This document shows positions 1-48,121 of a stretch of 64,000 nt of DNA, piece after piece. How positions within the stretch are numbered: the stretch's first letter is position 1; each line of letters starts with the position of its first letter. The stretch comes from Qipengyuania intermedia. Its GTDB lineage: Bacteria > Pseudomonadota > Alphaproteobacteria > Sphingomonadales > Sphingomonadaceae. The stretch lies in NCBI RefSeq assembly GCF_019711615.1, contig NZ_JAIGNS010000002.1, positions 297,501 through 361,500 on the forward strand, read 5' to 3'. Made by a program: the position numbers and the translations under genes. The notes beneath the pieces were generated by a model that had not been told where the DNA came from, made no database searches, and saw nothing but the letters and a program-made list of their open reading frames with translations.

Positions 1-2482
<2,482 letters not shown>

Positions 2483-2596
2483 AGGATCCATACCATCAAC
2501 GACAGCCCTGTGGGTTGTCCGCGAGGTGGAGGAAACTCTAGCCGGATAACGCCCAGTATCGTGCATCGATTTAAACCCATGTCCGCCTGCTTCATT

Positions 2597-2715
2597 GCTT
2601 GGTGACCTTAGCGTCTGTGACCCACCCGATCCCATCTCGAACTCGGCCGTGAAACCGGACAGCGCCGATGGTACTAGTGCTCAAGCACTGGAAGAGTAGG
2701 TCGTCGCCAGGCATT
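2597..2715 (+). rRNA. rrf: 5S ribosomal RNA
   Basis: About 119 nt downstream of 23S in the usual operon position. It has the conserved 5S core 'cccacccgatcccatctcgaactcgg' (2620-2645) and 'ccgatggtac' followed by 'agagtaggtcgtcgccagg'. The ends are set from the terminal helix pairing (gcttggtgac with gtcgccaggc) and may be off by one or two bases. Confidence 0.93.
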
Positions 2716-2755
2716 GCAGCCGGCGGACATTGGTAACAAACCCATTCACAGTTTC

Positions 2756-2792
2756 AAAAGCCGCTGCCGGTGTGAACCGAGCGGCGGTTTTT
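2756..2792 (+). terminator. possible hairpin terminator between 5S and tRNA-fMet
   Basis: A GCCGCT/AGCGGC stem (2760-2765 and 2780-2785) is followed by GG and a run of five T. It could end part of the rRNA transcription or act as a processing hairpin before the tRNA. The stem is short, so this is a modest prediction. Confidence 0.4.
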
Positions 2793-2830
2793 GTGTCTCT
2801 GGACACCATGTCTGGAAGACAACACGGTGC

Positions 2831-4591
<1,761 letters not shown>

Positions 4592-5000: not shown

Positions 5001-6443
5001 TCAATCTTGCGGCTCCTGTGGGGAGGATCCTCGATTGGCCGAAGTGGATGGGGCCATTTTACGACGAAAGAAAACGGCGGGATCAATTCGGAGTATCTCG
5101 ATAGCTCGATCAATTTGGCCCTGCTCCACCTTCGCTAGAGTGTCCTTTACCAGCTTTTTAGCAGTGTTGTTTTCTGGAGCACTTAGCTGATCCGGCGCCG
5201 CCCTGTCGGCTTTGCATGCGATCCGAAGGGCTTCGGTCAGTCGAGCCAAGGATTTTTTGCCAAGCGACTGAAGATCGTGATTGAATTCGAACTCTGGCAG
5301 TTTCTTCTCGCTTAACAAGGCTTCGATACAGGCGTGAATGCGGGCGCGCTGTGTTAGCAAATTCATAGCGAGGAGCGCGGCACCCTCTGTTGCATCAACT
5401 CCAAAGCGCTCTCGAACGAAAGAGCGACGTGTCCAGCCAGCCCCGGACAGGTCCGTTGCAGTCATCGCCTGTAAAGGATCAATGGCTTTGAGGATTTCGC
5501 GTGCGGTGTGGCGGAAGTGTGCGTAGGTTAGACTGTGCTCGGGCAGTCGCTTCTGAATATCCTTGGCCATCGAGATCAAAACATGACTTGAGGCATCATC
5601 ATCGAGAAGGCCAGCGGTCTTTAAAAGCTCCTCTGCTTCATCGTCAGCGACATCGTTATCCGCGGGGAGTGTCAGGAGGCGACTGATTGCTTGAGTAGGC
5701 GCGATCAACGCTGCATGCGCAACCGAGCTCATTGTCGGCCAAATAGCTTGCCCGGTCCACGCTCGGCCCAAGGGGGCCTTCGCGCATTGAGCCAGCTGCG
5801 CCATCCGCACATGAGCAGTGGCGACGGACAGCAGCATCGTATGATTTTGGACGATCGGCCGCACGAAGGAGACCGCCTCACGGCCCTTCTGCTTTGCTAC
5901 CCTCAGCGCGTCTACTGGGTAACCACCAACCAGCGCCGCGTAGATTTCTCGGTTCCAGGAGCGAAGTCTGTTCAGATCGTCTCCATGGCTTTCGTGGCTG
6001 ACGGCCAGTTTGTTCTCGAACACGTCAATGATGCTGGGGTCCGCATTTCGCGATAGGAAACGCGCAGCGTACCCCGCGCAGGACACAGGACCGGGGTAAT
6101 TCGGCGGTGGGAAGACATAAGCTTGCTCAAAGTGAGCGGAGGGCAGGTTGGATAGATCGTAGCGATACGAATGTAGCGCCTCCTGCACCTGCTCTCCTGT
6201 CATGCGCCTAGTCCGAAGTTCATCGATGGCCGAGGAAAGAGTTTGTCCAGCTCCCCCGGATAGCAGATGTAGCGTGGCCTCGACAAAGAACTCGTTTTCA
6301 AGCCCTCGGCCCGTGACATTGAGGCGAGCGGCAAGCGCTGGATTGGGACCTACGGGAGTGGGTTTGGTATCTTTCTGCTTTCCCCATGTTGTTAACTTGG
6401 GCCTCTGTGAGACGGGTATTTTCAGTTTCGGATCATGTTTCAT
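5001..6443 (-). CDS. uncharacterised 480-residue island protein
   Basis: I do not recognise this family. The start chosen is ATG at 6443 (protein beginning MKHDPKLKIPV). An upstream non-ATG start at 6497 would put a perfect inverted repeat inside the coding sequence and has an unlikely leader. The protein is soluble, with no signal peptide or membrane segment. It has a Pro/Lys-rich N-terminus, then a mostly helical body rich in Ala and Leu, and a basic C-terminus ending in Ser/Pro-rich residues. It sits directly upstream of the recombinase in the same orientation, behind a cluster of hairpins (6468-6625). Candidate roles are replication initiation or recombination control of the mobile island, but that is inference from position only. 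Confidence 0.75.
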   Translation of the reverse strand: MKHDPKLKIPVSQRPKLTTWGKQKDTKPTPVGPNPALAARLNVTGRGLENEFFVEATLHLLSGGAGQTLSSAIDELRTRRMTGEQVQEALHSYRYDLSNLPSAHFEQAYVFPPPNYPGPVSCAGYAARFLSRNADPSIIDVFENKLAVSHESHGDDLNRLRSWNREIYAALVGGYPVDALRVAKQKGREAVSFVRPIVQNHTMLLSVATAHVRMAQLAQCAKAPLGRAWTGQAIWPTMSSVAHAALIAPTQAISRLLTLPADNDVADDEAEELLKTAGLLDDDASSHVLISMAKDIQKRLPEHSLTYAHFRHTAREILKAIDPLQAMTATDLSGAGWTRRSFVRERFGVDATEGAALLAMNLLTQRARIHACIEALLSEKKLPEFEFNHDLQSLGKKSLARLTEALRIACKADRAAPDQLSAPENNTAKKLVKDTLAKVEQGQIDRAIEILRIDPAVFFRRKMAPSTSANRGSSPQEPQD

Positions 6444-6467
6444 CGTGGCAGACCATAACGTGGATAG

Positions 6468-6625
6468 ACCTGCCGGTTGCACGGCAGGTAGACGCACCTG
6501 CGGTGCGTGAACTAATAAGGGATGATCCGGACTTGCTGCGCCGGGTCGACCATGGGGGCTGAGCGGGCCCCACCGTGTCTGCCATCCACGACCTAGTCGT
6601 GGTCAGGTCGATATATTTCGACCTG
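6468..6625. repeat. cluster of perfect inverted repeats upstream of the orphan gene
   Basis: Four perfect inverted repeats lie within 160 bp. They are ACCTGCCG-6-CGGCAGGT (6468-6489), ACGCACC-3-GGTGCGT (6492-6508), CCACGAC-3-GTCGTGG (6586-6602) and CAGGTCGA-6-TCGACCTG (6604-6625). A fifth, imperfect one (TGGGG...CCCCA, 6553-6572) lies between them. None is followed by a T-run, so they are not ordinary terminators. They occupy the 5' leader and promoter region of the gene that starts at 6443. They could be binding sites, a replication origin, a recombination-related structure or a structured leader. Confidence 0.7.
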
Positions 6626-7145: not shown

Positions 7146-8045
7146 TCACGTTAAATGGCGTTCTCGCGCAGCCAGCATTGCGATAGCCGCTCGATAAACC
7201 GCTTCGTGGTCAGATTGATTGATTTCGCAAAGTTCGAAGAAAGCTGTCATGAATGCACATTTGGACTGAATCGAAGAATTGTCAGCCTTCGCGAGGCACG
7301 GAACTATAGCGTTCTCACTCGGCGCATTTCGAGCCAGTCGCTGGATGCGAGCTACGCCCTCCGTTCCAGCGATATCCGAGACAGTTTCCTGCTTTGCAAA
7401 CTCTACTAGCCGCTGTGCGTAGAGGGCCATGGCCAGCTCATAGCCTGCGGGAGGGTTTTCCAGCGCCTCTAGTAAAGGGAGTTCCTTTAATAGACGGGCT
7501 GCTTGGATGCCCGGATCGATGTGGGCGACCTGCACTCGCGGCAGGCCGAGCGTATGGATTTCTCGAGGAAACGCACCTGAGCCATCGATGTTGGTTTCTA
7601 CTATTCGCACTTCGCCCAAAGAGCCAAAGTCATTTCGCATGTCCATAATCAGGCGCCCGGTTCCGGGGCTGTTCGTCGACGCCACCGCAAAGAAAATAAT
7701 TCGCGCACCCGATGCCCGCAAATCTGAGAAGACCTCAGCCAGAAACTGCGTCACTGCAGTACCGCTGGCGAAGAGGTTGGCGCCAAGGTCAAACAACACG
7801 ACATCTTTGCCCGTCAAATGACTGTCGATCCAAGTGGAAGCTCCGCCCGCTGGCTGGGCCCACGAAAGTGACAGGGCAGAACCTTGCCCACATCGCCGAA
7901 TGTACCCACTGTTCCCGTCGTCGACGTCTACCACCAACGTTTCGTTTCCTCCTGCCTCGCAAGTTGCGTTGAGGATGTCGGTAAAGGTCGTCTTGCCACT
8001 TCCACCCTTTTGCTGGCCTACCAAGCAGATTGTCTTCTTACGCAT
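7146..8045 (-). CDS. ParA/MinD-type partition ATPase
   Basis: 299 residues. The deviant Walker A motif KGGSGKTT has signature Lys13 and Lys18 (residues 13-20). It is followed by VVDVDDGNSG, and the ...VVLFDLGAN segment supplies a Walker B-like Asp. This fits the ParA/Soj/CobQ superfamily that positions plasmids or helps maintain integrative elements. The gene starts 11 bp after the end of the 121-residue gene upstream, so the two are probably cotranscribed. No ParB-like gene with a recognisable ParB domain is present, so the small partner could supply that role or this is a single-ATPase system. The Walker A third residue is Gly-Ser rather than the more common Gly-Val. Confidence 0.85.
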   Translation of the reverse strand: MRKKTICLVGQQKGGSGKTTFTDILNATCEAGGNETLVVDVDDGNSGYIRRCGQGSALSLSWAQPAGGASTWIDSHLTGKDVVLFDLGANLFASGTAVTQFLAEVFSDLRASGARIIFFAVASTNSPGTGRLIMDMRNDFGSLGEVRIVETNIDGSGAFPREIHTLGLPRVQVAHIDPGIQAARLLKELPLLEALENPPAGYELAMALYAQRLVEFAKQETVSDIAGTEGVARIQRLARNAPSENAIVPCLAKADNSSIQSKCAFMTAFFELCEINQSDHEAVYRAAIAMLAARERHLT

Positions 8046-8055
8046 ATCGTGTCTC

Positions 8056-8421
8056 TCACTTCAGGTTGCGGATGGGATCGACCCGTCGACCGAACGGGTT
8101 CTCAGGTGAGGCCATGTGCAGTGTGAGCTGTGGTTCCCCATTCTGGGATGCAGAACTGCTAGCAGTCTTGTGCTTTTTCCTTGCCCGCGGCTTGTGCGCG
8201 GACTCCTTGGTGGCGCGCTCGACCGCCCGCCGAACGGTATCGGCCTTGAAGGGATCTTCCTCGCAAAGGTCCCGTCCGATCATTTCCCAGGTCTTGCCGT
8301 TCCGGCGCGCTTCCGCGATCTCCGGCAGGTACTGAGTAATGAAACCCGCTTTGCTTTTATTTTGGCGCTGTGCGGGTTTGCGAAGCCTCTTCGCCACCTC
8401 ATCATTTTCGTTGGTATTCAC
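8056..8421 (-). CDS. small basic HTH-like protein upstream of parA
   Basis: 121 residues, starting from ATG at 8421. The centre (about residues 25-70) reads like a helix-turn-helix segment with YLPEIAEARRNGKTW and a following VRRAVERA helix. The rest is Lys/Arg-rich and then Ser-rich. It is 11 bp upstream of the ParA-like gene on the same strand. Small DNA-binding partners in this position are common on plasmids and integrative elements, where they act as partition adaptor or repressor. I cannot assign a family. Confidence 0.6.
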   Translation of the reverse strand: MNTNENDEVAKRLRKPAQRQNKSKAGFITQYLPEIAEARRNGKTWEMIGRDLCEEDPFKADTVRRAVERATKESAHKPRARKKHKTASSSASQNGEPQLTLHMASPENPFGRRVDPIRNLK

Positions 8422-8897
8422 TTAGCTGCTCCTCAGTGGAGCTTGAACCAAGACACGAGCAGACCCTTACGGTCATTGGCCGGACAACTTTGGTGCATCA
8501 AACAGACTTGCGTTCGCAGGCCGCTTTGGCGCCTTTGAACGCGTTGCTGGGTATGAAAGGCTCGAAGCAAGTGCTCGATTTGGCCGCAGGACATCGCCGA
8601 TGTCACTTAATATGACCGATGGAGTTCAAACCTACATCGAAGAGGCTTGGTGTCCGTGTCTGTCCTTCAACCCCTCATCTGCCCGAATCTTGGCCGCTCA
8701 CGCCCTCAAAGTGTCCCATACGCTACCGAACGCGGTCCTCAGAAGATCCGACCCATGCACTACTCAACGTCCGGTCGCAGCCCTGCGATCGTCCGAAAGG
8801 AAAGGGTTTTTTTGAAGCAGGATGGGTCATGCACTCACCGGCATGACCGACAAGGGATTGCTCGGCGGAGAGCCTTCTCGCACACAGGGACGCGACT
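8422..8897. other. divergent non-coding region between partition and mobilization genes (holds oriT)
   Basis: 476 bp with no credible gene. It separates the minus-strand parA pair from the plus-strand mobilization pair. The right end contains the oriT described separately. Short motifs such as ATGCACT occur twice (8755-8761 and 8829-8835), and GACCCAT near 8750 is complementary to ATGGGTC at 8822-8828. The left part probably holds promoters and possibly a centromere-like site, but I could not identify one. Confidence 0.5.
8817..8848 (-). other. oriT: predicted origin of transfer (oriT) with MOBP-type nic site
   Basis: Read on the minus strand, an 8-bp perfect inverted repeat GGTCATGC-8-GCATGACC (8848-8841 and 8832-8825) is followed directly by CATCCTGC (8824-8817). 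This matches the YATCCTG^Y nic consensus of RP4/Ti-type (MOBP) origins. An inverted repeat 5' of nic is the expected architecture. The mobilization genes start 50 bp away, as in many MOB regions. With nicking on this strand, the partition and recombinase side would enter the recipient first and the relaxase gene last. Confidence 0.75.
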
Positions 8898-9206
8898 GTG
8901 ACGGCGCGGGGACAGAAAGTCGGAAGAGGGAAGGGCAGTATAACCCTTCACTTGTCGAGTGAAAGGCTGCGTAAGCTGAAAGCACAGGCACTGGCAAGCC
9001 AGTTGAGTGTGTCGGCATACGTCGGCCTCATCATCGATGAAGCTGACTCCGAACAATGTCCGGCACTGGCGGCTTTGGGAGCTTTGGTCAGTCTTCACGC
9101 GACGGTCGAGAACTCGGGAAAAATCTCCGAGGACCAGCTCCGCGAACTTGAGAAGCTCGTCGATTCGCTGTCCGCTGCCGCTCGGCAAGAGGTTATTGAT
9201 CTGTGA
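8898..9206 (+). CDS. MobC-like relaxosome accessory protein
   Basis: 102 residues, from a GTG start (8898). The N-terminal half contains a ribbon-helix-helix-like segment, a strand GSITLHLSSERLRKLKAQA followed by ASQLSVSAYVGLII, typical of small relaxosome proteins that bind oriT. It overlaps the relaxase start by four bases (GTGA at 9203-9206), so the two are translationally coupled. Position beside oriT and the relaxase gene supports the role. The family match is by pattern only. Confidence 0.7.
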   Translation: MTARGQKVGRGKGSITLHLSSERLRKLKAQALASQLSVSAYVGLIIDEADSEQCPALAALGALVSLHATVENSGKISEDQLRELEKLVDSLSAAARQEVIDL

Positions 9207-11350: not shown

Positions 11351-11724
11351 TCTGCTCACGCTACGTGGATAGATGCAGTCACATCGCTTGGTTTGCGGCG
11401 GTACCGCGCTGAAGCAATACATCGTCGGCCACCCAAGACATTTTCCCACTTGAGCTAAGTCTTAGGTGGGGCCGATTGCGGACTATCAGGTTTTGTCCGA
11501 CTGGCCGAAAAAATACGACAACGCTACGCGCCAAAATGAGCTGAACAAGACCTTGGGACGGGGCTTTCGGAGACCTGCTTGAAAATACAGCCACGATATC
11601 CGAACGATCGAGATTGGAGGCGGGATATCGAGAGAAGCTGTTGCCTGCAAATCGAGGCTTTGGTGCATTTTACACACTTTGCCGCTCCGCAGTTTCCTCT
11701 GTTAGAAGAACAGCCGCAACTCGC
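11351..11724. other. 374-bp gene-poor junction region
   Basis: No credible complete gene. A 10-bp inverted repeat with two wobbles, CCCACTTGAG-6-CTTAGGTGGG (11445-11470), lies here without a T-run. A short open stretch after 11466 ends in a plausible but unidentified C-terminal peptide (ending GRGFRRPA, stop near 11580), which may be a gene remnant. This is a likely place for the right edge of the mobilizable island, but I found no copy of the tRNA 3' end that would mark an attachment repeat. Confidence 0.45.
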
Positions 11725-12750
11725 TCACGCTGTGCCCCTGACAACGAGCGTCGGCGGCATAACGATGCTTTCTGTCTCTTCGCCAGCAATTCGTCTCAGA
11801 AGCAATTGAACGATCGCACGGGCGCCACCTCCGATATCTTGCCGAATGGTCGTCAACGGTGGAGCGGTTTGCTGTGCAATTGGAAGATCATCGAAACCAA
11901 CGAGTTTCATCTCTTCCGGGACGTTCCTGCCAAGTTTGCGCAACTCTCCTAGGCAAGCCAAGGCAAGCAAGTCGGTCGCCGCGAAAAGGCCGTCGTAATT
12001 CTCGACTGCCTCTTTCATCAGGGCGGCGATTTCGGTTGTCATACCCGAAGTCGCGAGATGGGCAGGAAGCTCGGAAAGTGTCAGGCCGAAGGACTGGGCC
12101 ACTTGGCTAGCCCCGGAATATCGTGCCGCGAATTCCGGGGCGTTCGCATCCCCTACAAAAGCCATTCGCTTAGCGCCCGCAGCCACCAGTCTCTGCATGG
12201 CTAGCTTGCCGCCTAGCAAGTTATCCGATCCGACCACGCAATGGCGCTGTCCTTCGCGGTGCTGGCCCCAGACGACCATTGGCCGATATCCGTCTGCCAC
12301 CTCTTCAAGGTGGTTGAACTGATCCGACTGACCAACGACGATAACCCCGTCGATCATTCCAGAGCCGATAAAAGGGTCGAGCCAGTCTTCGTTGCTCGCC
12401 GGTACCACGCGGCGGAGCATCAGGTCGTAGCCTTTCTCTGTCAGCTCGTCGGCGAGGTGCCCGAGCAGGGTGAGGAAAAACGTGTCCGAGACCTGCTGCT
12501 TCTGTTCGTGTCCGAGCGGAATGATGACGCCGATCACGCCAGTTTTCTGACGCCGCAGGCGACTAGCCATCTGGTTCGGGCGGAACCCATGCTCGCGAGC
12601 GATGGCCTCGATTTTTTCACGCGTCTTATCATTGACGAGGCTGTTACCCGCCAGGGCTCGCGAAACAGTGCCCGGTGAGACACCGGCCAGTTTCGCAAGA
12701 TCGGTAATCGTGCGAACGGGTCGGTCGTCAGGTTTGCGGTCTACGGGCAT
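11725..12750 (-). CDS. LacI-family transcriptional regulator of the sucrose locus
   Basis: 341 residues. The N-terminal HTH (residues 14-34, TITDLAKLAGVSPGTVSRAL) is followed by the hinge helix (about 56-66) and a periplasmic-binding-protein-like ligand domain. It is 14 bp downstream of the MFS gene on the same strand, so it is probably cotranscribed and autoregulated. The LacI HTH reading head fits the two TTGCAAACGTTTGCAA palindromes at 14171-14209, which have the central CG typical of LacI/GalR operators. The inducer is probably sucrose or a product such as fructose; that is inferred from the neighbours. Confidence 0.92.
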   Translation of the reverse strand: MPVDRKPDDRPVRTITDLAKLAGVSPGTVSRALAGNSLVNDKTREKIEAIAREHGFRPNQMASRLRRQKTGVIGVIIPLGHEQKQQVSDTFFLTLLGHLADELTEKGYDLMLRRVVPASNEDWLDPFIGSGMIDGVIVVGQSDQFNHLEEVADGYRPMVVWGQHREGQRHCVVGSDNLLGGKLAMQRLVAAGAKRMAFVGDANAPEFAARYSGASQVAQSFGLTLSELPAHLATSGMTTEIAALMKEAVENYDGLFAATDLLALACLGELRKLGRNVPEEMKLVGFDDLPIAQQTAPPLTTIRQDIGGGARAIVQLLLRRIAGEETESIVMPPTLVVRGTA

Positions 12751-12764
12751 GTTAGCCTCCTAGC

Positions 12765-14099
12765 CTAGCCAGCCTGAGGCTGCATCACTTTTGGCACCGG
12801 ACGTCCTGCATCGACGAACATCGTGGCGATCGCCCCCAGGATCATCAAGCCTCCGCCAAGCAACAACACATTGCGCGGATCCCCGCCAAGCAGCGGCTCA
12901 TAGAACAGCGGCATGGTCAGTGTCTGGATCAGCATCGGGATGACGATGAACATGTTGAAAATGCCCATGTATATGCCGTTTCGTTCCGGCGGGATGGCGT
13001 CGGCGAGCATGACATAGGTATTGCCCATCATGCCTGCCCAGCCGATTCCGATACCCAGCATCAACATGAACAAGGCGGCCGTGGTCTCTACTCCTGGAAT
13101 CAGCAGCATGGCTATTCCCGACGCCGTGAGACAGAATGCATGCGTCAACCGTGCGCCCAGCTTCCTTACGACAGGGATCAGGAGCAGCGCTCCAAGGAAA
13201 GCGATAAAATTGTAAAGCGCACCAGCCTGCTGCGTCGTCAGGGTCGCATCGCGGAATGCCGCGCTCGAAGGATCGGACGTATCATAGAGCGACCGCCCGA
13301 CGGCGAATGTGATGTACTGCCAATAAGCAAACATCGCGTACCACTGGCACAGCATGGCGAGCGACAATTGACGCATGGCCTTGGGCATTTCGCGTATGGC
13401 ACTGACTATGTCTGCAAGAGTAGCGGCTGGCGTAAGGGGCCTGTCGGCCAGTGTCGCCTTTTCTTCATCGCTCATCGGCAATTCGGGGACGCGCCAGACG
13501 GACCAAGCGATAGTGCTGATCGACAGGATCGCACCGATGATGAAGGCGATCTTCACGACCACCGGGATACCGTTGGCATCCAGTACGTCTCGCGCCACGA
13601 AGCTCGTAAGCAGGGTGGGAGCAAGATAGGACAGGGTCTGCGCGAGGCCGGTGAAGGCACTTTGCGTAAGGAACCCTATCGAACGCTGGTCCGGTACGAG
13701 GCGGTCTGCGACGTATGCGCGGTAAGGCTCCATCGTGATGTTGTTACCCGCATCGAGGATCCACAGCAGACCGGCCGCCATCCAAAGCGTGCTGGAATAC
13801 GGCATCAGGAACAGGCTGAGCGAACAGATGATCGCGCCGATCAGGAAGTAGGGTGTGCGCCGGCCATACCGTGACGACGTCCGGTCGCTCATCGCGCCGA
13901 TTATCGGCTGCACCAACAATCCGGTCATCGGTCCCGCCAGCCATAGCAAAGGCATCGTCGCCTCTTCTGCGCCCAGGAAACCGTAGATCGGACCCATGTT
14001 TGCCTGCTGTAGCCCGAAACTGAACTGTAGGCCGAAGAAGCCGATGTTCATTTCGATGATTCGCAACAGCGAAAGCCGCGGTTTTGCGATGCTTTGCAT
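12765..14099 (-). CDS. MFS sugar permease, GPH/SUT-like (probable sucrose transporter)
   Basis: 444 residues from ATG at 14099; the open frame extends upstream, but that part covers the operators. About 12 hydrophobic segments. Between helices 2 and 3 it carries [16 protein letters not shown], the loop typical of GPH-cation symporters and plant-type sucrose carriers. Located in the inner membrane, it probably brings sucrose in by proton symport after passage through the TonB receptor. It is divergent from the receptor gene and shares its regulatory region. Substrate is inferred from the GH68 and fructokinase genes. Confidence 0.87.
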
Positions 14100-14170
14100 A
14101 CCTTCCAATCCTCTTCCCCGGCAGGTCTCGAGCCTGCTCCCATCCATCGACTGACACGAATCCAGCGATA

Positions 14171-14209
14171 TTGCAAACGTTTGCAAAAATGGGTTGCAAA
14201 CGTTTGCAA
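14171..14209. promoter_or_regulatory. two perfect LacI-type operators
   Basis: The 16-bp palindrome TTGCAAACGTTTGCAA occurs twice, at 14171-14186 and 14194-14209, with centres 23 bp apart. They lie between the divergent MFS and TonB-receptor genes, 72 bp and 70 bp from the two start codons. Their perfect symmetry with a central CG is typical of LacI/GalR operators. The 23-bp spacing, just over two helical turns, could allow two dimers to bind on a similar face. Confidence 0.9.
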
Positions 14210-14278
14210 TCGTCTTATGCCTTATAGCGAATCGTGGGCCGACAGAGCGTCGCGATCTTGGGATAAGGAGTGGATGCC

Positions 14279-16753
14279 ATGAAGTTTCGTGCAGTTCTGG
14301 CCGTGGGCGTTGCCCTCTCGGCCCTATCAACCACCGCCAATGCGCAGGACGCGGCGCCTGCCGCAGATGGCGATCCAGTTCTGGAAGATGAAGTCATCAT
14401 CGTGACCGGCGTGGCGCGGGCGCAGAACCGCCTCGAGAGTTCAGTTTCGCTGAGTGTGCTGGACTCCGAATCCATTGCAGATGTGAACCCACGCTCGGCT
14501 GCGGACCTGGTTCGCCAGATCCCGGGTATCCGCTCGGAAGCTTCGGGCGGTGAAGGCAATGCCAATATCGCCGTGCGCGGTATCCCGGTTTCAACCGGCG
14601 GTGCGCGATACATCCAACTCCAGGAAGACGGCCTGCCGGTTCTCGAGTTCGGCGACATCATCTTCGGCAACTCGGACAACTTCGTTCGCGCCGATCGCAA
14701 TGTCGGTCGCGTCGAGGCCGTTCGCGGCGGTTCGGCCTCCACCTTTGCTTCGAATTCGCCGGGCGGCATCATCAACTTCGTGTCAAAAACCGGTCAGAAG
14801 CAGGGCGGTTCGATCGTTGGATCGATCGGGCTAGGCCACGAGACTTATCGGATCGACTTCGACTACGGTGCGCCGCTTGGCGACGACACTTACTTTCATG
14901 TCGGCGGCTTCTATCGCACCGGCGAAGGCCCGCGCGATATCGGCTACAACGGCAGCAATGGGGGCCAGATCCGTGCGAACCTGACGCAGGAATTCGATGG
15001 TGGCTACATTCGCTTCTTCGGCAAGTATCTTGACGACAAGACCCCTACAATCCTGCCGCAGCCGGTGTTCGTCCGAGGCACCAACGCCGACCCCGACTAT
15101 CAGGCCATCGCCAACTTTGATCCGCGCGACGATGCCCTCTACAGCCGCTACATCAATACCGTGGCGACGCTTGACGGCAGCAACAATCCAGCCGTCTACG
15201 ACTTCCATGACGGGCTCTCGGTGAAATCGAAATCGTTCGGTGTCGAAGCGGAAATCGAGTTCGCCCCCGGATGGACTGCCACGAACCGCTTCCGTTACTC
15301 GGATAATTCGGGAGCTTTCCTGTCGCCGTTCCCGGCCAGCGCGGGGGATGCGCAGGATATCGCCGATGGCATCGGCGGTCCGGGTTCTTCGATCGTATTC
15401 GCGACTGGTCCGAACGCTGGGCAAACCGCCACAGCATCCTCAATCGGTGGCAACGGGCTGCTGACCAATATCGTGAACTTCAACACACGATTGAACGATC
15501 TCGGTCTGATCGCGAACGATCTTCGCATTTCGCGCGATTTCGATGTCGGCGGAGGGGCGCTGACCTTCACTGGCGGGTTCTACGCCAGCCGCCAGAATGT
15601 CGACACCGACTGGCTTTGGACTTCGCATGTGCAGACCGTGGAAGGTGACGGCAACGCCGTGCTGGTCGATATCGTCGACGCGAGCGGCAACACCGTCACG
15701 CAGAATGGCGTCGTCGGCTACAGCGCAAGCTTCTTCGGCAATTGCTGTCGCCGCAACTACGATGTGCGTTACGACACCTATGCGCCCTTTGCCTCATTGT
15801 CGTTCGAAAGCGGTGCGCTTACGCTCGATGCCAGCATTCGGTATGACTACGGTAGTGCGGACGGCTCGATCACCGGATCGGACAGCGGTTATGGCAGTGG
15901 TATAACCAGCTTCGATTTCGACAATGACGGCACGATCAGCCCCGCAGAAGCTTCGACGGCGGTACTGCCTCTCGGCAATTCACGTCCGGTCAATTACGAT
16001 TTCGATTACTTCAGCTTTTCGCTCGGCGCCAATTACCTTGTGACGGACGATCTTTCGGTCTTTGCGCGATACAGCCAGGGCGGGCGGCACACCGCTGACC
16101 GCAGCCTGTTCTCGCCGGCCGTTAGTACGCTGGATGGTAGCCTGCCGGGTGGCGACGACAGCGGCGTCATCGCCGAAGTCGACCAGCTTGAAGGCGGCGT
16201 GAAATACCAAGCTGGCGGGCTGCGGCTCTACGGTACGGTCTTCTATGCCGAAACCGCGGAAACCAATGTCGAGATTGCGCCGCTCGAACTGACCGATAAC
16301 CGTTACGAAGCAATCGGTGTCGAATTGGAAGGAAGCTATTTCTTTGGTCCGTTCTCAATCTCCGGCGGCGCCACCTACACAGATTCTGAAATCGTGGATG
16401 CGCTCAACGCGTCGGTCATCGGCAACACGCCCCGCAGGCAGGCCGATTTCGTCTATCAGGGCACCGCTCAGTACGAAGACGATTTCCTGACCGCCGGTAT
16501 CAATATGATCGGCACGACGGAAAGCTTCACCCAGGACAGCAACGAACTCGTCCTGCCGGCCTATACGCAGGTCAACGCTTTCCTGGCCGTGCGCCCGCTT
16601 GAGCGTCTGGAAGTGTCGCTCAATGCGAGCAACCTGTTCGACGCATTCGGCTACACCGAGGCCGAAGAAGGTTCGATTCCGGGTAACGGCATCGTGCGCG
16701 CAAGGTCGATCGCAGGCCGAACGGTTACGGCCTCGGTTCGCATCGATTTCTGA
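14279..16753 (+). CDS. TonB-dependent receptor (probable sucrose receptor)
   Basis: 824 residues from ATG at 14279, with AAGGAG 8 bp upstream. A signal peptide ends near ...TTANAQ. The TonB-box-like EDEVIIVTG follows, then a plug domain (about residues 45-170, with DLVRQIPGIR and NIAVRGIP) and a large beta-barrel ending in a terminal Phe, as in outer-membrane proteins. In proteobacterial sucrose loci such as the Xanthomonas sux locus a TonB receptor imports the sugar. The same combination here supports that role. It is transcribed away from the MFS gene under the LacI operators. Confidence 0.9.
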   Translation: MKFRAVLAVGVALSALSTTANAQDAAPAADGDPVLEDEVIIVTGVARAQNRLESSVSLSVLDSESIADVNPRSAADLVRQIPGIRSEASGGEGNANIAVRGIPVSTGGARYIQLQEDGLPVLEFGDIIFGNSDNFVRADRNVGRVEAVRGGSASTFASNSPGGIINFVSKTGQKQGGSIVGSIGLGHETYRIDFDYGAPLGDDTYFHVGGFYRTGEGPRDIGYNGSNGGQIRANLTQEFDGGYIRFFGKYLDDKTPTILPQPVFVRGTNADPDYQAIANFDPRDDALYSRYINTVATLDGSNNPAVYDFHDGLSVKSKSFGVEAEIEFAPGWTATNRFRYSDNSGAFLSPFPASAGDAQDIADGIGGPGSSIVFATGPNAGQTATASSIGGNGLLTNIVNFNTRLNDLGLIANDLRISRDFDVGGGALTFTGGFYASRQNVDTDWLWTSHVQTVEGDGNAVLVDIVDASGNTVTQNGVVGYSASFFGNCCRRNYDVRYDTYAPFASLSFESGALTLDASIRYDYGSADGSITGSDSGYGSGITSFDFDNDGTISPAEASTAVLPLGNSRPVNYDFDYFSFSLGANYLVTDDLSVFARYSQGGRHTADRSLFSPAVSTLDGSLPGGDDSGVIAEVDQLEGGVKYQAGGLRLYGTVFYAETAETNVEIAPLELTDNRYEAIGVELEGSYFFGPFSISGGATYTDSEIVDALNASVIGNTPRRQADFVYQGTAQYEDDFLTAGINMIGTTESFTQDSNELVLPAYTQVNAFLAVRPLERLEVSLNASNLFDAFGYTEAEEGSIPGNGIVRARSIAGRTVTASVRIDF

Positions 16754-16775
16754 TCCTCCCTACGATCAGATTGAC

Positions 16776-16815
16776 TGGCCGGCGAACCGATCCTCCCCGG
16801 TTCGCCGGCCAATTT
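16776..16815 (+). terminator. strong intercistronic hairpin after the receptor gene
   Basis: A 13-bp perfect stem TGGCCGGCGAACC/GGTTCGCCGGCCA (16776-16788 and 16799-16811) with a 10-nt loop is followed by ATTTCTT. It may be a partial terminator or an mRNA-stabilising structure. It would allow higher expression of the receptor than of the downstream enzyme genes. Confidence 0.65.
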
Positions 16816-16843
16816 CTTCCGACGACAATCCTAGGGTGAACTT

Positions 16844-17935
16844 GTGACCACTGCCTGGACCAGAACACACGTCGAAGCCGTAGCAAACCTGGAGGTTGCG
16901 CAGCTGCCGAAGCTGGCTGCGACCGAGGTCGTGCGACCCCGGCCGGAACTCTATTACTGGGACATGTGGCCGGTACAGGATCGTGATGGAAACATCGCCG
17001 ATGTCGCTGGGCGCGAGTTCTGGATGATCCTGACTGCCCCTGACAACGGCGATCCTGCAGGAAGGCATTTCAACGCCAAGATACACCTGCTTGAACGAAA
17101 AGATGCCAAGTGGGTCGATCTCGGTCCTCTCCTGCCCGACTTCGGCGGACCATATGAGCGGGAATGGTCTGGCTCCTCGATCTGGAATCAGGGGAAATAC
17201 GTGCTCTGGTTCACCGGGGCCGGACTGGCAGCGTCGCCGGGTGGCTACCAGCAGGCTTTGTTCGAAACCAAAGCCAATACGGACTCGAGCGGTCTGCCAA
17301 TCGGATGGAGTAGCCCGCAACCGATCCTGACAGAACTGACCTCGGACTACATCGCCGCCGATGCTCACGAAGGTGAGGCGGGACGTATCAAAGCCTATCG
17401 CGATCCTGCTTATTTCAGGGATCCGGCGGATGAGCGCGAATACTTGGTGTTTTCCGCATCGCGCCCAGCAGGCGAGAGCGAGTATACCGGCGCAATCGCA
17501 CTAGCCGAAAAGGTCGATGGAAAATGGACTTTGCTGCCACCCATCATCCATTCTGGCGGAGTGAACAACGAGTTGGAGCGCGCGCACATCGTCTTTCACA
17601 AGGGACGCTATCTTGCGTTCTGGGCCACCCAGTCGAGTACCTTCGCGCCGGAATTGCAGCATGCACCGACCGGGCTATACGGAATGTCCGCCCAGACCCT
17701 TCGTGGATCCTACACACCATTGAACGGGTCTGGACTGGTACTGGCCAACCCTGCTGGTCGCCCTACACAGGCCTATAGCTGGTCGGTGACAAAGGAATTG
17801 CTTGTATCCAGCTTCATCGAATGCGCAGATGACGAGTGTAGCGAATTCGCAGGCGCTCCAGCGCCTTTTTGTGCGCTGGCTATCGGACCTGAGGCCAAAG
17901 ATGCCCGGCCAGTTCGGATGGAGGCGGTAAGATGA
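16844..17935 (+). CDS. GH68 sucrose hydrolase/fructosyltransferase
   Basis: 363 residues from GTG. Five-bladed propeller GH68 motifs are visible: WDMWP with nucleophile Asp40, EWSGSS around residue 107, RDP with transition-state Asp187, and ELERAH with acid/base Glu245. There is no signal peptide, and the length is shorter than secreted levansucrases (about 420-470), so a cytoplasmic or periplasm-independent sucrose-splitting role is likely. It probably releases glucose and fructose from imported sucrose. The stop overlaps the fructokinase start (ATGA), tying the two steps together. Confidence 0.87.
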   Translation: MTTAWTRTHVEAVANLEVAQLPKLAATEVVRPRPELYYWDMWPVQDRDGNIADVAGREFWMILTAPDNGDPAGRHFNAKIHLLERKDAKWVDLGPLLPDFGGPYEREWSGSSIWNQGKYVLWFTGAGLAASPGGYQQALFETKANTDSSGLPIGWSSPQPILTELTSDYIAADAHEGEAGRIKAYRDPAYFRDPADEREYLVFSASRPAGESEYTGAIALAEKVDGKWTLLPPIIHSGGVNNELERAHIVFHKGRYLAFWATQSSTFAPELQHAPTGLYGMSAQTLRGSYTPLNGSGLVLANPAGRPTQAYSWSVTKELLVSSFIECADDECSEFAGAPAPFCALAIGPEAKDARPVRMEAVR

Positions 17936-18816
17936 GTGACGGTCTGCTTGGAGGGATTGAAGCGGGCGGCACCAAGTTCGTCCTTGCGGTAGGTGAAAGT
18001 TCAAACCGCGTACGCGCCACGCACACAATCCCGACCCGTGACCCGTCCGCAACCTTTGCGGAGGCGCGAGAATGGTTTGAGCAGCAGGGTAAGCTTTGCG
18101 CTATCGGCATTGCCAGCTTCGGGCCTGTCGAACTCGACAAGGCGTCACCCGCCTGGGGCCATATCCTCAAGACACCTAAACCCAACTGGTCTGACTGCGA
18201 CCTCGCAGGATTTTTCGGACGGGCTTTTTCCATCCCGATCGGATTTGAGACCGATGTAAACGGCGCGGCGCTTGCAGAGTATCACCACGGCGCCGGGAGG
18301 GGAGCGTCCTCGCTCACCTACGTTACGGTCGGAACTGGAATAGGAGGCGGGACCATCATAAATGGCCGCCTCGTGCACGGAGCAGGCCATCCGGAGCTGG
18401 GTCACATCTACCCGCGACGTGTCCCAGGCGATCAGGATTTTGCAGGGTTTTGCCCTTTTCATGGAGACTGCCTCGAAGGACTGGCGTGCGGCCCGGCGAT
18501 TCTTGCGCGCTGGGGATCGAGCCTTTCGAACCTATCCTCGAACCACGAAGCCCATGATCTTGTGGCGGGTTATCTCGCACAGATGTGTCACAGTATTTAT
18601 GCTTCAATGGCGACAGAGATAATCGTGCTGGGCGGAGGGGTCATGAAAACGCCGGGGCTACTGGACAAGGTCGTCAAACGGGCGGAGGAACTTGGGGCAG
18701 GTTATTTCCCCAGCCGAGAAAAGCACAAGATAGTGTCTCCGGCGCTCGGAGATAAGGCTGGCGTGACTGGAACTTTGCTGCTGGCAGAAGCAGCACTCCG
18801 AGGGCAACAGGGCTAG
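17932..18816 (+). CDS. ROK-family fructokinase
   Basis: 294 residues. It has an N-terminal phosphate-binding GGIEAGGTKF (residues 7-16), the catalytic-loop DVNGAALAE (about residues 107-115), GTGIGGG and a ROK zinc motif with H-x-E-x-G-H followed by C-P-F-H-G-D-C-L-E-G. These are features of ROK fructokinases of the Mak/ScrK kind. It would phosphorylate fructose released by the GH68 enzyme. It is coupled to that gene by a four-base overlap. Confidence 0.9.
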   Translation: MSDGLLGGIEAGGTKFVLAVGESSNRVRATHTIPTRDPSATFAEAREWFEQQGKLCAIGIASFGPVELDKASPAWGHILKTPKPNWSDCDLAGFFGRAFSIPIGFETDVNGAALAEYHHGAGRGASSLTYVTVGTGIGGGTIINGRLVHGAGHPELGHIYPRRVPGDQDFAGFCPFHGDCLEGLACGPAILARWGSSLSNLSSNHEAHDLVAGYLAQMCHSIYASMATEIIVLGGGVMKTPGLLDKVVKRAEELGAGYFPSREKHKIVSPALGDKAGVTGTLLLAEAALRGQQG

Positions 18817-19083
18817 CTTTGCACTCACACCATGTTGATCCCTTAGGTACCTAGGCAGGTACAGGTTTGGCAGCTTTCGGGAACCAATTTTGGTCGATCT
18901 AGCGTCCGGAATAGGGCGCGAAGCAGACGAAGATGACAGCGCAAAGCGCATGGCTACGAACTATGCGCTCATTCGAAGAATCCGAAGGTAACTTTGTTAA
19001 AAGGTGGCTGACGCCGGAAGGTGAAAATTCCACCTGAGGTGTGCAGACTTGCAGCCAGCTGCGCGCCGCCTCTGAGATTCCTC

Positions 19084-30594: not shown

Positions 30595-31098
30595 CTATCG
30601 CGCGGGTCCGGTTCCCATTCGCCGCGCGAACCACAAAGTCGCTGAAGGGACCACAATCCACATCAGCATGGGGACTAGGCCAATGTCGGTCCCCGGCAGC
30701 AGAGGCATGCTCTCGCTGTACGTCCATCCCCAATCGGCGCCGACCGCCAGGATTTCGACGAAAGCCGTTATTACGAGGCCGGTCGCAAGGTAGACGGCGA
30801 AGCGCCAAGCCTCAAAACGGGTCAACCACGGACATTGTCGATTGCCGATCGAGGCGACGAGATAAGCCGCAACCATTATGCCAGCGTCGCCGAACGAGGC
30901 CAGGCCGCAGCGACGTGCTGCCTCGGCAGGCGACAGACCTCCCGACTGGTAGAAAGGAAGCTGGAGCATCTCCCAGGCGAAAGCGATGAGAATTCCGAAT
31001 ATCGCGATCCAGAGGGCTGGATGAGCACCGCGCCATTCGCGCGATTTCTCAGAGATTGGGTTTTGATCCTGCATCGTCTTATCCGTTACTCGCGCCAT
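30595..31098 (-). CDS. four-helix membrane protein beside a Cu-ATPase (copy A)
   Basis: 167 residues from ATG at 31098; a later ATG (MQDQNPIS) is an alternative start. Four hydrophobic segments, with FAWEMLQLPFY after the first and a conserved Cys and Asp in the next loop. It is not a family I can name. It is a homologue of the protein at 47075-47575. The 5' 212 bp or so of the gene are identical in both copies, and the 3' half (before 30887) is clearly diverged. It follows the truncated ATPase just as copy B follows the complete one. Confidence 0.75.
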   Translation of the reverse strand: MARVTDKTMQDQNPISEKSREWRGAHPALWIAIFGILIAFAWEMLQLPFYQSGGLSPAEAARRCGLASFGDAGIMVAAYLVASIGNRQCPWLTRFEAWRFAVYLATGLVITAFVEILAVGADWGWTYSESMPLLPGTDIGLVPMLMWIVVPSATLWFARRMGTGPAR

Positions 31099-31644
31099 CT
31101 CCGTCCCGCCCTCACCGCTCAGGTATCGAATTTGGGAAGAGCGAGGCCGCGCAGGCGCAGGGCGTTGCCGATCACCGATACCGAAGACAGGCTCATCGCT
31201 GCGGCCGCGATCATCGGGTTCAAAAGCAACCCGGTCCATGGATAGAGGACACCTGCAGCGACCGGAATTCCGAGCGCATTATACGCAAAGGCAAAGAACA
31301 GGTTCTGCCTGATGTTGCGCATAGTGGCCCGAGACAGGACGAGCGCCTGAACAACGCCGACGAGGTCGCCGCGCACCAATGTCACGCCCGCGCTTTCGAT
31401 CGCGACATCGGTACCCGTTCCCATCGCGATGCCGACATGCGAAGCGGCAAGCGCGGGTGCGTCGTTTATGCCGTCGCCGGCCATAGCGACCCGGCGACCC
31501 TCGCTCTTCAACTGCTCGATCTTGCGATGTTTGTCCTCGGGCGAGACATTCGCTTCGACTTCGTCGATACCGACCTGGCTTGCTACCGCACGCGCGGTGG
31601 CTTCGCTGTCGCCGGTAAGCATCACGATCTTGATGCCGCGCTCA
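30887..31644. repeat. 758-bp perfect direct repeat, copy A
   Basis: Identical by eye to 47364-48121, at a constant offset of 16,477 bp. It covers the 5' part of the membrane-protein gene and the 3' part of the Cu-ATPase gene. Left of 30887 the copies remain homologous but diverged; right of 31644 they are unrelated. Confidence 0.93.
31119..31644 (-). pseudogene. 3' fragment of a Cu(+)-ATPase gene
   Basis: Encodes only the end of a heavy-metal P-type ATPase: the hinge motif [10 protein letters not shown] and the last two membrane helices, ending [12 protein letters not shown]. It is identical to the C-terminal 174 codons of the complete gene at 47596-49935. Identity stops sharply at 31644, so the phosphorylation DKTG and CPC motifs are missing. 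It is non-functional as a pump and is a product of duplication. Confidence 0.92.
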
Positions 31645-47074: not shown

Positions 47075-47575
47075 TCAGCGGGGTCCGGTGCCGAGACGGC
47101 GCGCGAGCCACAAGGAGGCTGTGGGAACCGCGACCCACATCGCGATCGGTATGAGACCGATTTTGGTTCCGGGCACAAGCGGCATGATTGCACTATAGGA
47201 CCACCCCCAGTCGGCACCGACAGCCAGCACTTCGACCATGGCAGTAATGGCCAGGCCGATTCCCAGGAACACGACAAAACGCGAGATCGGCCAGTCTACG
47301 AGCCACGGCGTTTTACCACTGCCGACAGAGGCGCCGAGATAAGCGGCCACCATGATCCCGGCATCGCCGAACGAGGCCAGGCCGCAGCGACGTGCTGCCT
47401 CGGCAGGCGACAGACCTCCCGACTGGTAGAAAGGAAGCTGGAGCATCTCCCAGGCGAAAGCGATGAGAATTCCGAATATCGCGATCCAGAGGGCTGGATG
47501 AGCACCGCGCCATTCGCGCGATTTCTCAGAGATTGGGTTTTGATCCTGCATCGTCTTATCCGTTACTCGCGCCAT
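47075..47575 (-). CDS. four-helix membrane protein beside a Cu-ATPase (copy B)
   Basis: 166 residues from ATG at 47575, 20 bp after the CopA stop; a later ATG at 47551 is an alternative. Four hydrophobic segments with FAWEMLQLPFY after the first, a conserved Cys and Asp (ARRCGLASFGDAG), and a GADWGW-like motif before the last. It is homologous to copy A (30595-31098). Its constant position next to copA-type genes suggests it supports copper export, but the mechanism is unknown. Confidence 0.78.
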   Translation of the reverse strand: MARVTDKTMQDQNPISEKSREWRGAHPALWIAIFGILIAFAWEMLQLPFYQSGGLSPAEAARRCGLASFGDAGIMVAAYLGASVGSGKTPWLVDWPISRFVVFLGIGLAITAMVEVLAVGADWGWSYSAIMPLVPGTKIGLIPIAMWVAVPTASLWLARRLGTGPR

Positions 47576-48121
47576 CTCCGTCCCGCCCTCACCGCTCAGG
47601 TATCGAATTTGGGAAGAGCGAGGCCGCGCAGGCGCAGGGCGTTGCCGATCACCGATACCGAAGACAGGCTCATCGCTGCGGCCGCGATCATCGGGTTCAA
47701 AAGCAACCCGGTCCATGGATAGAGGACACCTGCAGCGACCGGAATTCCGAGCGCATTATACGCAAAGGCAAAGAACAGGTTCTGCCTGATGTTGCGCATA
47801 GTGGCCCGAGACAGGACGAGCGCCTGAACAACGCCGACGAGGTCGCCGCGCACCAATGTCACGCCCGCGCTTTCGATCGCGACATCGGTACCCGTTCCCA
47901 TCGCGATGCCGACATGCGAAGCGGCAAGCGCGGGTGCGTCGTTTATGCCGTCGCCGGCCATAGCGACCCGGCGACCCTCGCTCTTCAACTGCTCGATCTT
48001 GCGATGTTTGTCCTCGGGCGAGACATTCGCTTCGACTTCGTCGATACCGACCTGGCTTGCTACCGCACGCGCGGTGGCTTCGCTGTCGCCGGTAAGCATC
48101 ACGATCTTGATGCCGCGCTCA
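47364..48121. repeat. 758-bp perfect direct repeat, copy B
   Basis: The second copy of the repeat at 30887-31644. It covers the start of the membrane gene and the last third of the complete Cu-ATPase gene. With copy A it flanks the dmeF-czc-CDF-ALS-FTR1 block, so recombination between the two would delete 16,477 bp or release it as a circle. Confidence 0.93.

Follow-up and report, generated by a model that had tools for sequence, protein, structure and literature searches.

A probable MOBP-type origin of transfer in a putative 71.2-kb integrative mobilizable element of a Sphingomonadaceae chromosome

Integrative mobilizable elements (IMEs) with a relaxase of their own have been little described in Alphaproteobacteria, and the island considered here is a MOBP candidate with relatives. 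The available part of a review counts no canonical IME among those described in Proteobacteria by 2017, and describes, in Burkholderia glumae, an IncP island that encodes a MobP relaxase as well as TraJ- and TraK-related proteins; relatives are reported in Alphaproteobacteria (PMC5704250). In Mesorhizobium, 24 IMEs were delineated in 2021, some at tRNA-Met genes and five with serine recombinases; their relaxases, in the portion of that account available, are MOBF with one MOBQ, and most have a traACD locus (PMC8627217). Because alphaproteobacterial IMEs of these kinds, some at tRNA-Met and some with serine recombinases, are described there, the novelty of the present island is narrowed. The VirD2 relaxase of the Helicobacter pylori island tfs4 was shown to cut at ATCCTG, according to the excerpted text of PMC3772185. 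Integrated elements with an oriT and a relaxase and no mating-pair system are termed iMOBs in the accessible part of PMC11389934, a class that the present island fits. MOBP1 relaxases are placed among the commonest of marine mobilizable elements in the available part of PMC11104534, and attP sites completing the target gene are called common in that of PMC12884075, which mentions TIGER, one of the island databases that may hold the present island. Among open-access literature, by titles and abstract beginnings, no sphingomonad MOBP IME at tRNA-Met was recognised.

The window is the whole 64,000-nucleotide stretch of DNA that was analysed. A hairpin and nic core within it are very probably the oriT of a 71.2-kb IME in a Sphingomonadaceae (GTDB sense) chromosome, with a putative cycle of excision and transfer, as judged from sequence comparison. 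The features, in window coordinates that are continued past the window end, are as follows.

2831-2907, plus strand: tRNA-Met (cat) gene, the attB target, after 23S and 5S rRNA
2864-4591, minus strand: large serine recombinase (Resolvase, Recombinase and zinc ribbon), its last codons overlapping the tRNA gene
2896-2907, plus strand: attL core CCCCCGCAACCA, a 12-bp direct repeat that is the tRNA 3' end
2909-2919, plus strand: attP arm CGGTGTAACAC, with its inverted partner GTGTTACACCG at 74073-74083
5001-6497, minus strand: protein of 498 aa and unknown function; the G123 element has a relative
7146-8045, minus strand: 299-aa TraL-like ParA-type P-loop ATPase, with relatives at 5 of 11 wider loci; a further, weak relative is at locus L061
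8056-8421, minus strand: protein of 121 aa at the position of TraK, oriented away from the relaxase operon, with relatives at 5 of 11 wider loci
8817-8824, minus strand: nic core CATCCTGC, matching the MOBP consensus (C/T)ATCCTG(C/T) in the available part of PMC3772185
between G8818 and C8817, minus strand: cleavage point predicted from the motif
8825-8848, minus strand: inverted repeat abutting the nic core, with perfect 8-bp arms (8825-8832 and 8841-8848) and an 8-nt loop
8860-8881, minus strand: second conserved block GCGAGAAGG-N4-CCGCCGAGC, 5' of the repeat
8898-9206, plus strand: TraJ-like ribbon-helix-helix relaxosome accessory protein, 102 aa
9203-11350, plus strand: TraI-like MOBP relaxase, 715 aa, GTG start (PF03432, 3.8e-19; LPD7; TraI_middle; NF041893, 7.6e-48)
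11469-64000, on to about 74,070: cargo, including a sucrose-type uptake and use block, RND and metal efflux, copper oxidase, FTR1 and others
74095-74106, past the window end: attR, the second CCCCCGCAACCA copy

On the minus strand, positions 8848 to 8817 read GGTCATGC CGGTGAGT GCATGACC CATCCTGC with zero gap before the core, in exactly the letters and coordinates that the earlier note had given for a perfect repeat and gapless core. The combination GGTCATGC-N8-GCATGACC was found by pattern search at a single place in the 2.70-Mb genome (being symmetrical, it reads on both strands). YATCCTGY has 13 sites in the window, and only the one at 8817-8848 abuts a perfect 8-bp repeat; 0.2% of window positions score as well or better for a repeat, which gives an expectation of about 0.026 at the 13 sites. 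CATCCTGC at 8824-8817 fits YATCCTG^Y as proposed, and its combination with the abutting repeat is more than chance. The octamer alone carries little weight, and together with a repeat beside a relaxase operon it means more; (C/T)ATCCTG(C/T) with an inverted repeat immediately 5' is the arrangement of a MOBP-type oriT, and it is present at 8817-8848. The folding energy of the hairpin is unexceptional, as 27 of 200 shuffled sequences fold equally well (36 of 200 in another DNA fold). The block at 8860-8881, located by a search with its own letters and having partly invariant columns in a 12-locus alignment, is probably an accessory-protein site.

The relaxase scored 69.7 bits against PF03432 (MobA/VirD2; gathering score 24.6), and the sole NCBIfam model to match it at E 0.1 was the TraI/MobA(P) equivalog NF041893, at 163.7 bits against a curated cut-off of 250 and over profile positions 1-342 of 502. 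Both Tyr38 and the H-x-D...P-H-x-H motif reported for it earlier are present (H150-x-D152...P156-H157-x-H159), with D152 replaced by N in 8 of 12 family relaxases. H150, T153, H157 and H159 were found in all 13 aligned sequences (12 family relaxases and R751 TraI) and Y38 in all 12 family relaxases, R751 TraI having an aligner gap at that column, and the relaxase has the motif I tyrosine and motif III H-x-[D/N]-T...H-x-H of MOBP relaxases. When the relaxase model was searched against PDB folds, the five best matches were relaxases, headed by R1162 MobA (E 2.1e-4) and followed at rank 2 by 4ht4, which we take to be a relaxase; TM-scores were low (0.26-0.31 by query length), and the model is poorly confident around Tyr38. 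A PDB sequence search with the relaxase profile found nothing at E 0.01.

The 102-aa gene overlaps the relaxase gene by 4 bp. It had been described as MobC-like and, like the relaxase gene, as starting 50 bp away: the distance is right for the small gene, which starts at 8898, whereas the relaxase starts at 9203, 355 bp away. The small protein has no Pfam match at E 0.1 and resembles a TraJ-type ribbon-helix-helix accessory protein (TraJ comparison, E 1.1e-4) rather than a recognised MobC. Foldseek gave no significant match for it, ranking two relaxosome accessory proteins, PcfF and NikA, first (E 0.69) and seventh (E 2.5), and in a second fold comparison ten unrelated helical chains outranked CopG. 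The 121-aa protein matched R751 TraK at E 0.09, which is not significant, and the TraL-like alignment with R751 TraL reached E 9e-6, a score that ParA-type ATPases as a class would be expected to give. A counterpart of TraM was not identified.

An unpaired first base is a hallmark of initiator tRNA, and the tRNA-Met at 2831-2907 is read as the initiator from this feature. Two copies of CCCCCGCAACCA, identical over 12 bp and the only ones in 82.5 kb scanned, bound 71,199 bp, and in our reading GTGTTACACCG and CGGTGTAACAC would be the symmetrical arms expected of attP. The right end is given by an empty-site genome (G410) that is 99.5% identical to window positions 273-2907 and then has a different flank past the tRNA gene, corresponding to C2:371608 of the present genome, or window coordinate 74108; at attR this flank matches directly over no more than 38 bp, at 87%, and the further flank is 77-78% identical. 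Genome G403 was rejected as an empty-site genome and replaced by G410, its right flank not being near the island, and a right end beside the relaxase (about 11.4 kb) was rejected because there is no further tRNA copy in the window and the flank comparison gives 74.1 kb.

At E 1e-100 or better, the serine recombinase is present in 3 of 397 genomes, the present one included, in four copies (its own, one in G123 at 61% and two in G262 at 62%), all of which adjoin a tRNA-Met gene, as does a partial match in G444. A recombinase lies near the relaxase at 2 of the 11 wider relative loci, that of G123 and, as a more distant protein, that of G125, where it likewise borders the same tRNA sequence at a contig end. 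The island has the site-specific recombinase and att sites of a canonical IME. About 14 codons at the end of the recombinase frame overlap the oppositely oriented tRNA gene (window 2864-2907), and because of this the C-terminus of the protein would differ between the integrated and excised states. Genome G262 has two closely similar relaxase loci (L061 and L062) and two tRNA-Met recombinase loci (L097 and L099), about 50 kb apart in each case; a related island may be present there twice, although the stretches read near the relaxases contained no attR.

The VirB4 family PF03135 has one match in the whole genome, on contig C1 outside the island, and the coupling protein family PF02534 has none anywhere in it; thus, the description of the window as free of type IV secretion genes holds for these two families. 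The island has its own relaxase and oriT, as a canonical IME does, and lacks coupling protein and mating-pair genes as far as these two families show. A region of contig C1 (472000-491000, locus L095) with VirB4 and a VirB11-type ATPase looks like a chromosomal virB-type locus. Because the sole VirB4 lies outside the island and the genome has no PF02534 coupling protein, a helper is probably needed for transfer, and the island would have to borrow the channel and also the coupling protein, provided that none from a family other than PF02534 escaped the search.

The cargo, for which some labels rest on reading of translations, begins with the sucrose-type block at 11469-18928 (LacI regulator, MFS, TonB receptor, GH68 and ROK kinase), which has a 95% identical counterpart on contig C2 of G403 and 85-86% identical ones in G406 and G354, and which seems to have moved on its own. 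A palindrome around TTGCAAACGTTTGCAA at 14183-14220, just before the TonB receptor gene, is likely to be an operator of the LacI-family regulator (11725-12750). There is also a 300-bp direct repeat (30826-31125 and 47303-47602, 95% identical and 16.5 kb apart) whose copies share the starts of two similar membrane-protein genes.

An alternative, which appears unlikely yet is the best of the rivals, is that a real oriT sits in an island that has become an immobile relic or is a composite grown by accretion, its module no longer driving 71-kb transfer. The occurrence of the 11469-18928 block in G403 suggests that parts of the island moved separately, the internal 300-bp repeat shows rearrangement, and the genome has no PF02534 coupling protein; however, the recombinase, relaxase and accessory genes are all open, the relaxase keeps its catalytic residues, and the identity of the att copies over 12 bp and the symmetry of the attP arms argue against this reading.

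The oriT was compared across 19 distinct relaxase loci (the present one and 18 relatives), of which 12 came from a family-wide, five from an order-wide and two from a named-genome search. The family search, of 397 genomes with the present one, gave 12 matches in 11 genomes; the order-wide search, of 396 genomes, gave 10 with a match and five new loci; and the named genomes gave six loci, two of them new (S. melonis and S. parva) and four (Sphingomonas edaphi, Pacificimonas flava, Croceibacterium ferulae and S. oligoaromativorans) already counted as G145, G210, G125 and G123. An alignment query was needed for these genomes, no relative being found in them with the single relaxase sequence. Among 3521 plasmid records there were distant relatives of the relaxase, none of which covers 80% of the query in one place and all of which are below 60% identity.

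YATCCTGY abuts an inverted repeat at 17 of the 19 loci. All 12 family-search loci have CATCCTGC directly 3' of the repeat and upstream of the relaxase operon, the repeat being imperfect at three of them (two G-T pairs in G145, one mismatch each in G210 and G356); the repeat filter counts G-T pairs, and a stricter one (at most one mismatch and no G-T) misses the G145 locus. At all seven added loci the core is on the strand opposite to the relaxase gene, some 340-370 bp ahead of its start: the arrangement is present in G536 and G588 (arms identical to each other, one G-T pair), in S. melonis (one G-T pair) and S. parva, and in G635, where the core is CATCCTGT; G548 combines a perfect repeat with a core that differs by one base, CAACCTGC; and in G020 (locus L088) the core keeps its place beside a weak repeat, with 5 of 7 pairs. 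The core is nearly fixed, as CATCCTGC with one CATCCTGT and one CAACCTGC. The 8-nt loop of the present locus compares with 2-6 nt at the 17 other loci with a clear repeat. At locus L065, a repetitive stretch (about 8110-8655) that translates as repeated PYRTRRLGRSGD-type units adjoins the oriT of the G354 element.

The arms of the repeat covary. After two duplicate rows and locus L088 were dropped and the G548 variant was kept, 16 distinct arm pairs remained, and 90 of the 96 pairs at their six outer arm positions are Watson-Crick. When right arms were re-dealt among left arms, the maximum in 100,000 shuffles was 76 of 96 and none reached 90, a result that ignores relatedness and is not a probability; non-cognate arms gave a mean of 3.49 of six pairs, some of them all six. 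Arm position 3 takes all four Watson-Crick combinations (T-A, G-C, A-T and C-G), which would be hard to get without selection for pairing. Nineteen loci with 16 arm pairs and a near-fixed core constitute natural material on the co-evolution of relaxase and oriT specificity.

It is highly improbable that the repeat and CATCCTGC are mainly an operator at which the TraJ-like protein represses its own operon with no nicking. The accessory gene starts 50 bp downstream of the repeat, binding to repeats is common among ribbon-helix-helix proteins, and the accessory protein model resembles CopG and Arc, but CATCCTGC, a known MOBP nick motif, is kept abutting the repeat while the arms change, which an operator alone does not explain, and operator and nicking roles can coexist. 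A chance hairpin beside a chance octamer is scarcely credible: YATCCTGY does occur 13 times in the window, but 0.026 abutting repeats were expected at those sites, and the recurrence of the arrangement at 17 of 19 loci, with covariation, contradicts it.

The earlier note proposed that a mobilizable island of the chromosome has its MOBP-type oriT here; this is the best reading, and the 17 loci, the arm covariation, the IncP Tra1 gene order and the att sites support it. Its word "textbook" is slightly strong for the oriT, which has the MOBP-type arrangement but an unusually long loop among the loci compared and a relaxase below the NF041893 cut-off. That score, the non-significant TraK-like homology and the missing TraM counterpart weigh against reading the hairpin and core as the oriT of an IME, as do the occurrence of TraK-like and TraL-like genes at only 5 and of the recombinase at only 2 of 11 wider loci, the weak repeat of L088, the unexceptional folding energy of the hairpin, the low confidence and TM-scores of the relaxase model and the short direct match at attR.

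If the hairpin and core are the oriT of an IME, the large serine recombinase would excise the island between the two CCCCCGCAACCA copies and leave the tRNA-Met gene intact. The TraJ-like, TraK-like and TraL-like proteins would assemble at 8817-8881; the relaxase would bind the repeat, nick the minus strand at CATCCTG^C through Tyr38 and stay on the 5' end, a step predicted because of the motif, the conserved residues and the family. Once the circle had formed, the TraK/TraL-like and recombinase genes would lead the departing strand and the relaxase operon would come at its end, a polarity that is expected from the orientation, which is the same as in R751. The strand would exit through the coupling protein and type IV secretion system of a helper, and in the recipient the recombinase would integrate the circle at the same tRNA gene. 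A nick at 8818/8817 without excision would export the chromosome through the rRNA operon.

More tentatively, there may be a lineage of MOBP-relaxase IMEs in Sphingomonadaceae with a large serine recombinase specialised for the (initiator) tRNA-Met gene that follows an rRNA operon, an attP restoring the 3' end of that tRNA and an IncP-like relaxosome that evolves new hairpin arms on a CATCCTGC core. The oriT and island are of an ordinary kind; their comparative support is uncommonly strong, and the element is of use because its limits are mapped. With base-level coordinates for the nick site, the accessory block and both att sites, the mobility of an island rich in metal and sugar cargo is directly testable.

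Among described systems, compared here through the available parts of their accounts, pPDL2 of Sphingobium fuliginis is likewise a sphingomonad integrative mobilizable element at a tRNA 3' end, but it is a plasmid with phage-type integrases and a seryl-tRNA target, its oriT resembles that of pLB1, and RepB is considered its possible relaxase (PMC3516476). The H. pylori tfs4 island is similarly chromosomal and has a perfect repeat immediately before TATCCTGC, whereas its relaxase is called phylogenetically distinct from established families and it has vir genes of its own (virB10) (PMC3772185). The canonical IMEs NBU1 and NBU2 share an own MobP relaxase, a lack of T4SS genes and a tRNA 3'-end target, and differ in their tyrosine recombinases and Bacteroidetes hosts (PMC5704250). 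The Mesorhizobium IMEs are alphaproteobacterial, with their own relaxases, some at tRNA-Met and some with a serine recombinase; their MOBF or MOBQ relaxases, compared by description, contrast with the TraI-like MOBP relaxase here, and a shared recombinase is possible (PMC8627217). By its description, the B. glumae IncP island is alike as an island with its own MobP relaxase and TraJ/TraK-related proteins, and is set apart by TrbJ and TrbL (PMC5704250), neither of which was recognised in the present island, for which PF03135 and PF02534 were the secretion families searched. The IncP plasmids R751 and RP4 differ in that the present element is integrated in the chromosome and is without an identified TraM, TraG or TraF counterpart; R751 TraI is 22% identical to the relaxase over 267 aa, and the R751 repeat, 1 nt from CATCCTGC, has 19-nt arms with 17 pairs as against 8 bp here. 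Shared with their Tra1 core are the nick motif, a repeat next to the core, a TraI-type relaxase, a ParA/ArsA-type ATPase, and the gene order and divergence around the oriT (TraL-like, TraK-like, oriT, TraJ-like, TraI-like).
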